64,000 bases of DNA from Candidatus Vesicomyosocius sp. SY067_SCS001. GTDB taxonomy: Bacteria; Pseudomonadota; Gammaproteobacteria; PS1; Pseudothioglobaceae. The first letter of the stretch is position 1; each line of letters opens with the position of its first letter. Location of the stretch: contig NZ_CP054877.1 of assembly GCF_014706615.1 (NCBI RefSeq), positions 868,001 to 932,000 of the forward strand, written 5' to 3'. This document shows, piece by piece, positions 9,942 to 23,155 of the stretch. The notes below the pieces were generated by a model. It did not search any database. It worked only from the letters and a program-made list of their open reading frames with translations, and had not been told where the DNA came from. Both the position numbers and the translations under genes were made by a program.

Positions 9942-10349
9942 ATGCAAAAACAGATTATTTCAACCGACAAAGCCCCTAAAGCAATCGGCACTTATTCTCA
10001 AGCAGTATGTATTACTGGAGGATCTATCATTTACTTATCTGGACAAATTCCTTTAATACCAGAAACAATGAAAATAATCAGTGGAGATATTGGTGAACAA
10101 ATTAATCAAGTTTTTAAAAATATAATAGCTGTTTGTCGTCAATCTAATGGTGACTTAAAGGATATTGTAAAACTAAATATCTACCTAACTGATCTAAATA
10201 ATTTTCCAAAAGTTAACGAAATAATGTTCACCTATTTTAATGAACCATATCCCGCACGTGCAATGATCGGTGTTAATGAACTACCTAAAAAATCCATGGT
10301 TGAAATAGATGGGATTATGGCAATAGAACCCTGTGATTACACCTACTAA
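9942..10349 (+). CDS. ridA: RidA family reactive imine/enamine deaminase
   Basis: RidA hydrolyses reactive 2-aminoacrylate and related imines from PLP enzymes, protecting the cell. The 135-residue product shows the YjgF/RidA pattern: APKAIGTYSQAV near the start, YLSGQIP, a conserved Arg in YPARAMIGV, and the end motif VEIDGIMA. Length is normal. It stands 51 bases upstream of recG in the same direction. Confidence 0.93.
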   Translation: MQKQIISTDKAPKAIGTYSQAVCITGGSIIYLSGQIPLIPETMKIISGDIGEQINQVFKNIIAVCRQSNGDLKDIVKLNIYLTDLNNFPKVNEIMFTYFNEPYPARAMIGVNELPKKSMVEIDGIMAIEPCDYTY

Positions 10350-10399: not shown

Positions 10400-12451
10400 A
10401 TGTATCAACTATCTAATTCAATTATTATATTAGATGGGTTAGGTCCAAAAACACAACAAAAACTAAACGCCATTGGTATTTTTAATTTGGAACATTTATT
10501 ATTTCAATTACCAACACGCTATCAAGATAAGACTAAACTAGTTAAATTAAACCAAGTCCAAGTAGGTGATGAAGTATTAATTCAACTAACTATAAAGTAT
10601 ACCGAACAGGTGTCAACTCATCAGAAACAATTGTTATGCTATTTATCTGACTCTAATCACCAAAACTTATTACTTAGATTTTTTTATTTTAATCAATATC
10701 AAAAACAAAACTTTATTCGTGGTGATATCATCCAATGCTTTGGTGAGATAAAAATGGGTCAAAATAGCTTAGAAATACACCATCCTGAATATAGATTAAT
10801 CTCTAAAGGACAAGCTAATTTACTAGAAAAAACACTTAGCCCTATCTATCCATTAACCACCAATATTCGTCAAGCACAAATGAAGAAATGGATAGGTATT
10901 GCATTAGAAGTTTTTCAACAATCAGATTTGTCTGATCATTTTAAAAATCTAACAAACAATGCCATGCCTACTCTTAAGCAGGCTTTAAATACATTACATC
11001 ACCCTAAATTTGATGATGATATCAAACAAATCGCTAATTTTAAGCACCTTTCACAGCAACGCTTGATTATTGAAGAGTTATGTGCACAACGCCTTAGCCT
11101 ACTCAAGCTCAAAAGCAAACATAAATCCAAAACATCCAATATATTTAAAATAAAAAATAACCTAACTCAAAAAGCATTAAATACCTTAAAATTTCAACTT
11201 ACCCAAGCACAACAACGTTGTATCAATGACATTAATTCAGATCTTAGTTCAAACCATCCAATGCTTAGACTATTGCAAGGTGATGTAGGATCAGGCAAAA
11301 CTATTATAGCTGTATTTGCTTGTTTACAAGCAATCGAAAATGGCTTTCAAACAACTATCATTGCACCAACTGAAATACTAGTTGCACAACATTTACAAGG
11401 ATTCTCAAAATACCTAACTCCTTTAGGTATTGAAATTGCGTTTTTAACTGACTCACAAAGTGCAATACAAAAATCCAAACAACTTGAAAAAATTAACACA
11501 AATACAGCAAGAATTATCATTGGCACCCACGTATTACTCCAAACCAAAGTTGTTTTTGATAAACTAGGTTTAGTAATTATTAATGAACAACACAAATTTG
11601 GTATACATCAATGCTTATCTCTTGTACAAAAATCGCATAATACACCTCATCAGCTAGTCATAACTACCACTCCTATTCCAAGATCATTAACTATTAGTGC
11701 TTATGCAGATTTAGACTACTCAATAATTGATGAATTACCACCTGGCAGAACGCCAACTAACACTATTGTAATTGGAAATAATAAAAAAAATAAAGTAATT
11801 GAAAAAATCAAACAAGTTTGTAATACTGGTAATCAAGTATATTGGATATGTACGCTGATTGAAGAATCAGAAATACTCCGTACTGAATCTGCTATCAATA
11901 CCCATAATTATCTAAAAAAAAAATTAGAAGGATTAAATGTAGTACTAATTTATGGAGGAATGCACAAACACAAAAAATCTAAAATTATAGCACAATTCTT
12001 AAAAGGTAAAATTGACATTTTAGTTACTACTACAGAGATTGAAGCAGGTATTAATATTATTAATACATCACTCATGGTCATTGAAAATTCTGAAAGACTA
12101 GGGCTTACACAATTACACCAATTACGTAGTCGCGTAGGACGAAGTCTTGACGCTAGTATTTGTATTCTAATGTATCAAACGCCACTCAGTTATAATGCTC
12201 TTGAACGACTTGACATCTTAAGAAAAACAAATGATGGATTTAAAATTGCACTAAAAGACCTAGAACTTCGTGGCCCTAGTGAGATTCTAGGAACACAACA
12301 GATAGGCATAGCTAATATGAAAATTGCCAATATTGTGCGTGATAAGTATTTGCTAAAACAAGTACAGTCTTACTCAAAACAATTATTAAAATTAAACAAA
12401 AATAAACAACAAATACTTATTACTCGTTGGAGTACTGATGATAACAGCTAA
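10400..12451 (+). CDS. recG: ATP-dependent DNA helicase RecG, with eroded motifs
   Basis: RecG remodels stalled replication forks and branched DNA. The 683-residue product has the N-terminal wedge domain, helicase domains and C-terminal TRG-like region in normal order and near normal length. Walker A is intact (GDVGSGKT, 294-301). Several near-invariant motifs are changed relative to E. coli: DEQH is NEQH (Asn395), TATPIPRT is TTTPIPRS, HGRM is YGGM, VIEVGVDVPNA is EIEAGINIINT, and LRGRVGRG is LRSRVGRS (Ser577, Ser582). The frame is open throughout, so this is either a recently relaxed gene or a protein with altered activity. Confidence 0.9.
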   Translation: MYQLSNSIIILDGLGPKTQQKLNAIGIFNLEHLLFQLPTRYQDKTKLVKLNQVQVGDEVLIQLTIKYTEQVSTHQKQLLCYLSDSNHQNLLLRFFYFNQYQKQNFIRGDIIQCFGEIKMGQNSLEIHHPEYRLISKGQANLLEKTLSPIYPLTTNIRQAQMKKWIGIALEVFQQSDLSDHFKNLTNNAMPTLKQALNTLHHPKFDDDIKQIANFKHLSQQRLIIEELCAQRLSLLKLKSKHKSKTSNIFKIKNNLTQKALNTLKFQLTQAQQRCINDINSDLSSNHPMLRLLQGDVGSGKTIIAVFACLQAIENGFQTTIIAPTEILVAQHLQGFSKYLTPLGIEIAFLTDSQSAIQKSKQLEKINTNTARIIIGTHVLLQTKVVFDKLGLVIINEQHKFGIHQCLSLVQKSHNTPHQLVITTTPIPRSLTISAYADLDYSIIDELPPGRTPTNTIVIGNNKKNKVIEKIKQVCNTGNQVYWICTLIEESEILRTESAINTHNYLKKKLEGLNVVLIYGGMHKHKKSKIIAQFLKGKIDILVTTTEIEAGINIINTSLMVIENSERLGLTQLHQLRSRVGRSLDASICILMYQTPLSYNALERLDILRKTNDGFKIALKDLELRGPSEILGTQQIGIANMKIANIVRDKYLLKQVQSYSKQLLKLNKNKQQILITRWSTDDNS

Positions 12452-12497: not shown

Positions 12498-12974
12498 ATG
12501 TTTAACACAAAAAATTTAATATGGACAAGCTTAAATCAAATTAGAAATATACCTGATCACATTCTTGCTTGGCTTGATGATTATCAATCCTTAACCGCTA
12601 AACTAAAACAAAAATTTAATCGATTTTCAGTTAATATTTTATCACAAGAAGAATCCATTCCACATGCTGATGAAATAAAATTGCTTGATTGGTACAGCCA
12701 ATTTGTTGTACGTGAAGTAGAGCTTTTAGGAAATGATCAAGTTATTGTATTTGCTAGGTCAATCATCCCCATTACTAACAACACACAAAGCTTATTAAAA
12801 ATTGGTAATCACCCTTTAGGTGAAATATTGTTTAATGATGCAAATATTAAACGCGGTCAATTACAAGTTACCTATACACATGGAACTTGGGGTAGAAGAT
12901 CTCTCCTTACCATTGGTTCAACTCAAATATTGGTGAGTGAATTTTTTATAAAAACTAATAAATTAATTAGTTGA
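12498..12974 (+). CDS. ubiC: Chorismate pyruvate-lyase UbiC
   Basis: UbiC splits chorismate into 4-hydroxybenzoate and pyruvate, the first committed step of ubiquinone synthesis. The 158-residue product has the family features VREVEL, VFARSIIP, PLGEILF and WGRRS with the active-site Arg and Glu positions present. The length is normal. It follows recG after 46 bases. Ring hydroxylation later in the pathway may use the UbiH-type enzyme at 47.8 kb. Confidence 0.88.
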   Translation: MFNTKNLIWTSLNQIRNIPDHILAWLDDYQSLTAKLKQKFNRFSVNILSQEESIPHADEIKLLDWYSQFVVREVELLGNDQVIVFARSIIPITNNTQSLLKIGNHPLGEILFNDANIKRGQLQVTYTHGTWGRRSLLTIGSTQILVSEFFIKTNKLIS

Positions 12975-21031: not shown

Positions 21032-22453
21032 ATGAAAACATTTTATTGGTATGACTACGAAACTTTTGGAATTTCTCCCAAAATAGATAGAATCTCTCAA
21101 TTTGCTGGTATCAGGACTGATGAGAATTTTAACATTATAAATGAACAGATGTTTTACTGCAAACCCACCAATGATTGCTTACTATCACCTGAAACCTGTC
21201 TTATAACTGGTATTAGCCCACAATTATGTGAGCAAAAAGGAATGATTGAGCATAAATTTATTAGAAAAATTCATGCTCAACTTTCAACTCCAAATACCTG
21301 TATTGTAGGTTACAATTCAATTCGTTTTGATGATGAATTCACTCGTCACACATTGTATCGTAATTTTATAGACCCTTATACTTGGCATTGGAAAAATGGT
21401 AATACTCGCTGGGATATATTAGACGTTGTACGCTTATGTTATGCACTTAAAAAAGACACAAGCCTTAAATGGGTTTATGATGAACAAAATAAGGTAATAT
21501 TTAAATTAGATAAATTATCACTGGCTAATGACATTGAGCATACAAATGCACATAACGCTTTAGCTGATGTATATGCTACTATTGCAATAGCAAAAATCAT
21601 CAAAAAAACACAACCACAATTATTTGATTATGCATTTAGTTTAAGAAAGAAGAAAACAATTAAGGAAAAAATCAAACTATTTGAACCGATGTTATACACC
21701 TCAGGAATATATCCTACTACTCTTTCTTGTACACGTTTATCAGTTGCTCTTGCTTATCATTCATATCATGATCGAGTCTTTGTATTTAACCTTGATCAGG
21801 ATCCCTGTATTTTACTAGAACTTAACATTAAAAGACTTAAAACTCTAATGTTTACTAAAAATAATCAATCTGCATTATCAAAAGAAATGAAAGGACTACA
21901 AATTAAAGAACTAATTTTTAATAAAAGTCCAATGTTTATTCCTAATGTTTATAAACTTGAGTCAAGAATTATTAAACAATTGAAAATTGATATGAGTACT
22001 TGTCTTCAACGACTTGAATTTATTAAAGAAAATCAGATTGTAATTAGCAAAGTTGTACAAGATTTATACAGAAATGATCAACAACGTCCACAAAGTTCTG
22101 ATGTTGATCAAGCATTATATGATGATTTTATTAACGACAATAAAGATAAACATCTTTGCAATCAAATCCAAACTTTATCTACTAATAAATTAAAAAACTT
22201 TCATCCAAAATTTAAAGACGAGAGACTCTCAAAATTACTAATGCACTTCAAAGCTAGGAACTATCCAGACGTTCTAACTGAAAACGAAAAAGAAGAATGG
22301 TTCAAAACTGTACAAGAAAGAGTCCAAACAGGTATAAATGGATATATAACCATTGATGATTATCTAACACGAATTAACATAATCAGGAAACAACACCCAA
22401 ATCAAGAAAAATTATGGAAACAACTTGAAACTTATAGCAAGTCGTTCTTTTAG
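21032..22453 (+). CDS. sbcB: Exodeoxyribonuclease I
   Basis: ExoI degrades single-stranded DNA 3'-5' in recombination and mismatch repair. The 473-residue product starts with the DnaQ-like exonuclease motif YDYETFG (Asp8, Glu10), followed by GYNSIRFDDEF and HNALADVYATIAIA, completing the catalytic acidic set. The C-terminal SH3-like and helical regions are present and length is close to the E. coli enzyme (475). With nth it forms a small repair pair. Confidence 0.95.
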   Translation: MKTFYWYDYETFGISPKIDRISQFAGIRTDENFNIINEQMFYCKPTNDCLLSPETCLITGISPQLCEQKGMIEHKFIRKIHAQLSTPNTCIVGYNSIRFDDEFTRHTLYRNFIDPYTWHWKNGNTRWDILDVVRLCYALKKDTSLKWVYDEQNKVIFKLDKLSLANDIEHTNAHNALADVYATIAIAKIIKKTQPQLFDYAFSLRKKKTIKEKIKLFEPMLYTSGIYPTTLSCTRLSVALAYHSYHDRVFVFNLDQDPCILLELNIKRLKTLMFTKNNQSALSKEMKGLQIKELIFNKSPMFIPNVYKLESRIIKQLKIDMSTCLQRLEFIKENQIVISKVVQDLYRNDQQRPQSSDVDQALYDDFINDNKDKHLCNQIQTLSTNKLKNFHPKFKDERLSKLLMHFKARNYPDVLTENEKEEWFKTVQERVQTGINGYITIDDYLTRINIIRKQHPNQEKLWKQLETYSKSFF

Positions 22454-22522: not shown

Positions 22523-23155
22523 ATGAACGCCGAGACACGCACAAAGATATTTGGAAGGTTGCTTAAAAAGATACCAAATCCAACCACAGAATTAAACTAT
22601 TCAACACCATTTGAACTATTAGTGGCCGTAACATTGTCTGCCCAAGCAACCGATAAAAGTGTCAACAAGGTAACTGACAAATTATTTCCAATTGCCAATA
22701 CACCTAAAACTATTTCTAAACTAGGGGAAAATACACTTCGAGATACAATAAGAACTATTGGCTTATTTAACTCAAAAGCCAAACATATTATACAAGCTTG
22801 TAAAATTCTGATTGAAAAATACAACTCGAGCGTCCCAAAAACTCGTAAAGAACTAGAAGCACTACCTGGTGTTGGTCGTAAGACTGCTAATGTTGTTCTT
22901 AATACTGCCTTTGGCCATCCTACTATTGCAGTGGATACACATATTTATCGTGTAGCCAACCGCACTGCTATTGCAAGTGGTAAAACTGTATTAGAAGTAG
23001 AAAAAAAATTGGTTAAATTCATCCCTAATGAATACCGAGTACCTGCACACCATTTAATGATTCTACATGGACGTTATACCTGTAAAGCTCGATCTCCATT
23101 ATGCACAGAGTGTATCTTGCTTGATCTTTGTGAATACGAAGAAAAAAACTTATAA
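22523..23155 (+). CDS. nth: Endonuclease III
   Basis: Nth is a base-excision-repair glycosylase/lyase for oxidised pyrimidines. The 210-residue product keeps every key residue at E. coli-like positions: helix-hairpin-helix LPGVGRKTA with catalytic Lys120, Asp138, and the [4Fe-4S] ligands Cys187, Cys194, Cys197 and Cys203. The intact state contrasts with the eroded recG. It starts 69 bases after sbcB but has its own likely promoter. Confidence 0.97.
   Translation: MNAETRTKIFGRLLKKIPNPTTELNYSTPFELLVAVTLSAQATDKSVNKVTDKLFPIANTPKTISKLGENTLRDTIRTIGLFNSKAKHIIQACKILIEKYNSSVPKTRKELEALPGVGRKTANVVLNTAFGHPTIAVDTHIYRVANRTAIASGKTVLEVEKKLVKFIPNEYRVPAHHLMILHGRYTCKARSPLCTECILLDLCEYEEKNL

Follow-up and report, generated by a model that had tools for sequence, protein, structure and literature searches.

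Relaxed selection on the motor of a full-length RecG in vesicomyid symbionts that lack recA and ruvC

The window analyzed here is a stretch of 64,000 nucleotides, positions 868001–932000 of a single-contig, Vesicomyosocius-type genome of 1,032,764 bases (1.03 Mb). At positions 10400–12451, on the + strand, it carries recG as an uninterrupted 683-codon frame encoding a full-length protein of 683 aa. The product matches the NCBIfam RecG model NF008163 at 824 bits (cut-off 796), which bears out the description, in an earlier note on this DNA, of a full-length RecG without any frameshift. Its score against TIGR00643, 618, lies below that model's own cut-off of 659.4. The domain order is normal, with the PF17191 wedge, PF00270 (DEAD), PF00271 (Helicase_C), and PF19833 (RecG_dom3_C) all above their cut-offs. 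The wedge (10433–10894, + strand; residues 12–165) retains the aromatic pair of LRFF (residues 92–95). A Rid-family deaminase gene lies just upstream (9942–10349) and a chorismate lyase-like ORF downstream (12498–12974; NF008656, 77.6 bits against a cut-off of 191), and recG is found together with both in the fetched stretches of all ten genus genomes examined. Our genus sample comprises 12 genomes, the named relatives in the collection being Candidatus Vesicomyosocius and Ruthia; in all 12, recG is full length and free of internal stops. The window recG is the clade's ordinary RecG, vertically inherited. Confusion with a paralogue or with Mfd was rejected: the genome's other helicase match is an Mfd-like protein of 1,149 aa with 35% identity. 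The nth gene (22523–23155) and an intact sbcB, encoding exonuclease I (21032–22453), are present and evolve at ordinary rates, but they lie some 9–10 kb off and are not direct neighbors of recG.

RecG sequences were used from 50 of the 58 genomes surveyed; none was taken from G016, G017, G022, G033, G039, G040, G044, and G054, where the gene was partial or absent or the locus was not taken. Thirty-eight of these sequences, 21 from the family and 17 from the class, constitute the outgroup, in which 173 positions are conserved in at least 93% of the proteins (deep positions). We call clade I the four genus genomes G000, G001, G005, and G008, of which G001 is presumably V. okutanii; G003 we take to be, probably, R. 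magnifica.

The helicase motifs, all on the + strand, are unequally affected. Walker A (motif I, GDVGSGKT; 11279–11302, residues 294–301) is unaltered. Walker B (motif II; 11582–11593, residues 395–398) reads NEQH: the codon of D395N is AAT throughout clade I (4/4), and the aspartate is present in 38/38 outgroup sequences and in the eight other genus genomes. Motif III, TTTPIPRS (11663–11686, residues 422–429), departs at A423T, S429 being the family state. The motif IV region reads YGGM (11951–11962, residues 518–521; H518Y), and at residue 518 the four clade I RecGs have Y, N, D, or H, where every one of the 38 outgroup sequences has H. Motif V, TTTEIEAGINIINT (12026–12067, residues 543–556), carries V546E, V549A, V553I, and A556T, and includes the segment IEAGINIINT (residues 547–556). 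Motif VI, LRSRVGRS (12122–12145, residues 575–582), carries G577S and G582S and retains its arginines. The TRG loop reads GPS (12272–12280, residues 625–627; G627S), its third glycine being Ser or Asn in clade I (Asn in G008). R405C and V551I add to these departures from outgroup-conserved residues. The motif readings from Walker A to LRSRVGRS agree with those of the earlier note, but about three of the differences it listed are family-wide states and not lesions: PIPRS, VNV in place of VDV, which clade II relatives already carry as VNVTN, and the K or R of HG[KR]M. Treating all differences from Escherichia coli as lesions was thus rejected.

At the 173 deep positions, the four clade I proteins differ at 21 (the window genome), 19, 25, and 23 sites, the G003 protein differs at 10 sites, and the other seven genomes of the genus, all recA positive, differ at 0–4. 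Thirteen positions, including D395N, V546E, G577S, and G627S, are altered in every clade I RecG, and five of the thirteen (378, 549, 556, 577, and 582) are changed in G003 too. The G003 protein retains DEQH and carries R428T, T324N, G577S, and G582D. As the motif changes are common to four genus genomes, an assembly or frameshift artefact was rejected. Of the 83 conserved residues in the motor motifs, the clade I proteins have changed 17, 14, 18, and 18 and the G003 protein 9, compared with 0–1 in the set's four recA-positive genomes; the window protein, with NEQH and LRSRVGRS where intact SF2 motifs read DEQH and QLRGRVGRG, accounts for the first of these counts. By comparison, the motor motifs of Mfd, scored over 84 positions that exclude motifs Ia and Ib (not located by text match), are changed at 2/84 in each clade I genome and at 0/84 in G003. 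The motif changes in RecG thus exceed what chance would give. A simple genome-size effect was rejected, because the similarly reduced recA-positive genomes G002, G009, and G010 (1.18–1.23 Mb) retain their RecG motifs (0–1/83). However, Mfd has itself fixed changes at 22 of 395 deep sites throughout clade I, so that the oddities fixed on the clade I stem are in part a genome-wide effect. As the 13/173 of RecG only mildly exceeds this, the case is carried by the crown rates and by the location of the changes in the motifs. The number of stem-fixed RecG changes is unexceptional alone; their placement in motifs II, V, and VI and in the TRG loop is exceptional.

The recA gene (PF00154) is present in 7 of the 12 genus genomes and absent from the other five, those of clade I and G003. 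A second, weak match of about 459 aa, taken for RadA from its length, occurs in the same seven genomes and is absent from the same five. ruvC is absent from clade I and interrupted by five stops in G003. The clade I genomes have ruvA and ruvB; in G003, no ruvA was found, and what is left of ruvB is a stop-containing fragment. All 12 genomes carry priA. The survey of recA, ruvABC, and priA that the earlier note had proposed thus leaves clade I with ruvA, ruvB, and priA and without recA and ruvC. A search for recB in the 12 genus genomes returned only relatives below the cut-off, in every genome; one is a 1,058-aa RecB/AddA-like ORF (G000:C1:91240-93729), and similar matches extend to the five recA-less genomes. 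The recA-less set (5/12 genomes) coincides exactly with the set whose RecG motifs are eroded. A PCR study inferred independent losses of recA, one in clade I and one in R. magnifica (PMC3202245), so that the association between recA and RecG represents two independent events. With two lineages, the link could be a coincidence.

Rates were estimated in our own code with a GY94 codon model (F3x4) that assigns one omega each to the recA-positive branches, the stem of clade I, its crown, and G003. The window contains 65 ORFs of at least 100 aa; seven antisense or overlapping ones were excluded by eye, and 42 genes have orthologues in all nine genomes of the rate set. With these nine taxa, the omega of recG is 0.149 on recA-positive branches (rank 22 from the top among the 42 genes), 0.175 on the stem (rank 7), 0.295 in the crown (rank 2), and 0.332 in G003 (rank 2). 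The increase over the background is significant in the crown (likelihood ratio test [LRT], p = 5e-5) and in G003 (p = 6e-4) and not on the stem (p = 0.42 with nine taxa, 0.079 with 12). Twelve taxa gave 0.162, 0.224, 0.308, and 0.360, respectively. In 30 codon bootstraps, the 5–95% range of the ratio to background was 1.52–2.46 for the crown and 1.45–3.20 for G003. At deep-invariant sites, omega rises from 0.040 on recA-positive branches to 0.222 in the crown and 0.160 in G003 with nine taxa; with 12, the background is 0.026 and the corresponding values are 0.230 and 0.167. In the lineages lacking recA and ruvC, selection on the ATP-driven motor of RecG is thus relaxed about 2-fold overall and about 4- to 9-fold at normally invariant sites.

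The control proteins do not follow this pattern. At deep sites, neither Mfd (0.041 in recA-positive lineages, 0.075 in the crown, p = 0.11, and 0.041 in G003) nor PriA (0.018, 0.010, and 0.003) shows a significant change. The PriA of G003 (L099) has a raised overall omega (0.246 vs. 0.112, p = 1e-3), an increase confined to non-conserved sites. RuvB, a partner of the pathway, is also relaxed in the crown (0.211 vs. 0.068 on recA-positive branches, p = 2.6e-4; deep sites 0.106 vs. 0.020, p = 0.007), which fits a pathway effect and not a replacement of RecG by RuvAB. Relative to the control genes, recG therefore shows relaxed selection following the loss of its pathway, in two independent lineages only.

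Several other observations concern these proteins and the recG locus. RuvB is full length in clade I, where RecA and RuvC are missing (G000:C1:708531-709439, L105), with an omega about 3-fold above that of recA-positive relatives. The Walker A motif GPPGLGKT was not found in three of ten RuvBs (L107, L109, and L111, from G005, G002, and G010, respectively), and the deep-site changes of all three include Pro-to-Ser. The Rid-family deaminase gene evolves as fast as recG in the crown, with the highest omega of the 42 genes there (0.300), over a short protein of 135 aa; this rate and the raised overall omega of PriA in G003 weaken the case for RecG. The chorismate lyase-like ORF has a high omega in every lineage (0.26–0.31).

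We propose, with a probability of roughly 0.7, that once RecA and RuvC had been lost, selection on the ATP motor of RecG became strongly relaxed while the protein remained under residual selection. The persistence of selection separates this proposal from the idea that recG is already functionless, drifting neutrally and spared from stop codons so far by chance. A high omega, the Y/N/D/H variation at residue 518 among the four clade I genomes, and the convergent changes in G003 are what such drift would produce. However, omega = 1 is rejected, with LRT values of 100.5 in the clade I crown and 26.6 in G003. Moreover, neutral simulation at the synonymous rate yielded a mean of 46.8 stops over the four clade I tips (minimum 31 in 200 runs), where none is observed, and the wedge aromatic pair is retained. 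Neutral drift is thus very improbable. As neutrality is strongly rejected, the clade I recG is not yet a pseudogene, having neither a disrupted frame nor a neutral dN/dS. The loss of selection suggested in the earlier note consequently stands as a relaxation, visible in the move of recG from 22nd to second of 42 genes in parallel with the loss of recA and ruvC, but it is incomplete.

At the other extreme, RecG might be fully active, its changes being tolerated or compensated and its faster rate reflecting weaker selection in small symbiont populations. The catalytic E396, Walker A, and the motif VI arginines are all retained in clade I, so that activity may persist; omega is still about 0.3, and several substitutions are conservative. 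We nevertheless consider full activity unlikely, because Mfd, PriA, and the 41 other window genes serve as controls for genome-wide effects, and because the GPG loop is altered together with motifs V and VI in one protein. In addition, 211 of 369 class genomes contain I-D-E-Q-H-x-F-G-V and none contains I-N-E-Q-H-x-F-G-V, in a sample without the other three clade I genomes and with the window genome, which has FGI, fitting neither pattern. An intermediate view is that the motor is dead and RecG is kept as an ATP-independent fork-binding protein, with selection on the wedge and not on the motor. With 12 taxa, omega indeed rises from 0.133 to 0.331 in the motor (p = 2.5e-6) and only from 0.223 to 0.279 in the wedge (p = 0.39), and a domain-by-lineage test gives p = 0.031 for the crown and 0.017 for the crown and G003 pooled. 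With nine taxa, however, the wedge omega increases too, from 0.176 to 0.273 (not significant) and to 0.437 in G003. The bootstrap ranges of the wedge and motor ratios overlap, and the domain test for G003 alone is not significant (p = 0.14). The wedge is also less constrained from the outset, and in the G003 protein (L013) the alignment shows, beside the wedge pair, a two-residue gap (FHFN--QKQN) that none of the other 11 genus RecGs shares. We judge this view quite unlikely, and wedge sparing was rejected as a main claim, its outcome varying with the taxon set. A bolder extension, which we offer as a doubtful conjecture, is that in both recA-less lineages RecG is, or is becoming, a fork-binding protein without ATP hydrolysis, the motor job having split from RecA-independent binding.

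Under our preferred reading, in which the motor relaxed once RecA and RuvC were gone, RecG would have few D-loops and Holliday junctions left to drive without RecA strand exchange and RuvC. Fork regression and branch migration would then be only weakly selected in recA-less lineages, so that motor changes such as D395N, V546E, and G577S, which became fixed on the stem of clade I, would have been tolerated. Replacement of the Walker B Asp by Asn weakens ATP hydrolysis in related helicases, and ATP hydrolysis by the clade I motor may now be poor or nil. Alanine replacement of the GPG in the TRG loop of Thermotoga maritima RecG is reported to abolish both ATP hydrolysis and fork reversal (PMC6213257). 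A residual role, such as weak remodeling or the ATP-free holding of forks, SSB, or PriA sites, could sustain the partial selection. E. coli RecG is described as converting 3' flaps at merging forks and curbing PriA-driven over-replication, and 3' exonucleases such as ExoI as sharing the work on flaps (PMC5055574, PMC6393302). The retained exonuclease I may take over the flap work in the symbionts, keeping fork fusion tolerable. In E. coli, the rise in tandem-repeat recombination without RecG is reported to require RecA and RecBCD (PMC5055574). G003 would have arrived at the relaxation of the RecG motor independently.

The purpose of RecG has been unsettled for decades, between recombination, fork rescue, and the policing of fork fusion, and two losses of RecA among close relatives constitute a natural experiment on its function. 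If selection on the motor collapses whenever RecA is lost, the ATP-driven work of RecG would lie mostly downstream of RecA, and the features still under selection would point to any RecA-independent job. The recG of these symbionts of deep-sea clams looks like a repair gene partway to retirement, full length with its motor residues being rewritten, a stage of decay that precedes breakage of the frame and at which annotation would call the gene intact.

Loss of recA, mutY, and uvr genes has been described in vesicomyid symbionts (PMC3202245, PMC5310779). We found no paper on recG in vesicomyid or Calyptogena symbionts in one open literature collection, so that prior publication is possible, and recG does not occur in the main text of either study. 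The present case involves the same symbionts and the same stepwise decay of repair genes, but those genes are reported as deleted or fragmented, whereas recG is a full-length frame with erosion at motor sites. The closest published case is the neutralization of ruvA in isopod Wolbachia, as presented in PMC4224334: a branch-migration gene free of stops, whose Ka/Ks is raised and which carries, at a functional site, a change ancestral to the clade. There, the opposite gene decays, recG being conserved at a Ka/Ks of 0.13, and recA is among the homologous recombination genes analyzed. In the recA-less symbionts studied here, unlike in isopod Wolbachia, recG and ruvB both relax and neutrality is rejected. 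Compared with canonical RecG (T. maritima 1GM5, E. coli 9wm0), the clade I protein shares the gene family, the domains, Walker A, the wedge pair, and the motif VI arginines, but the Walker B Asp, motif V, the motif VI glycines, and the TRG-loop Gly are replaced. Mfd of the same genomes, which has a homologous SF2 translocase motor and a TRG motif, has, unlike RecG, kept its motifs nearly intact and its dN/dS is not raised.
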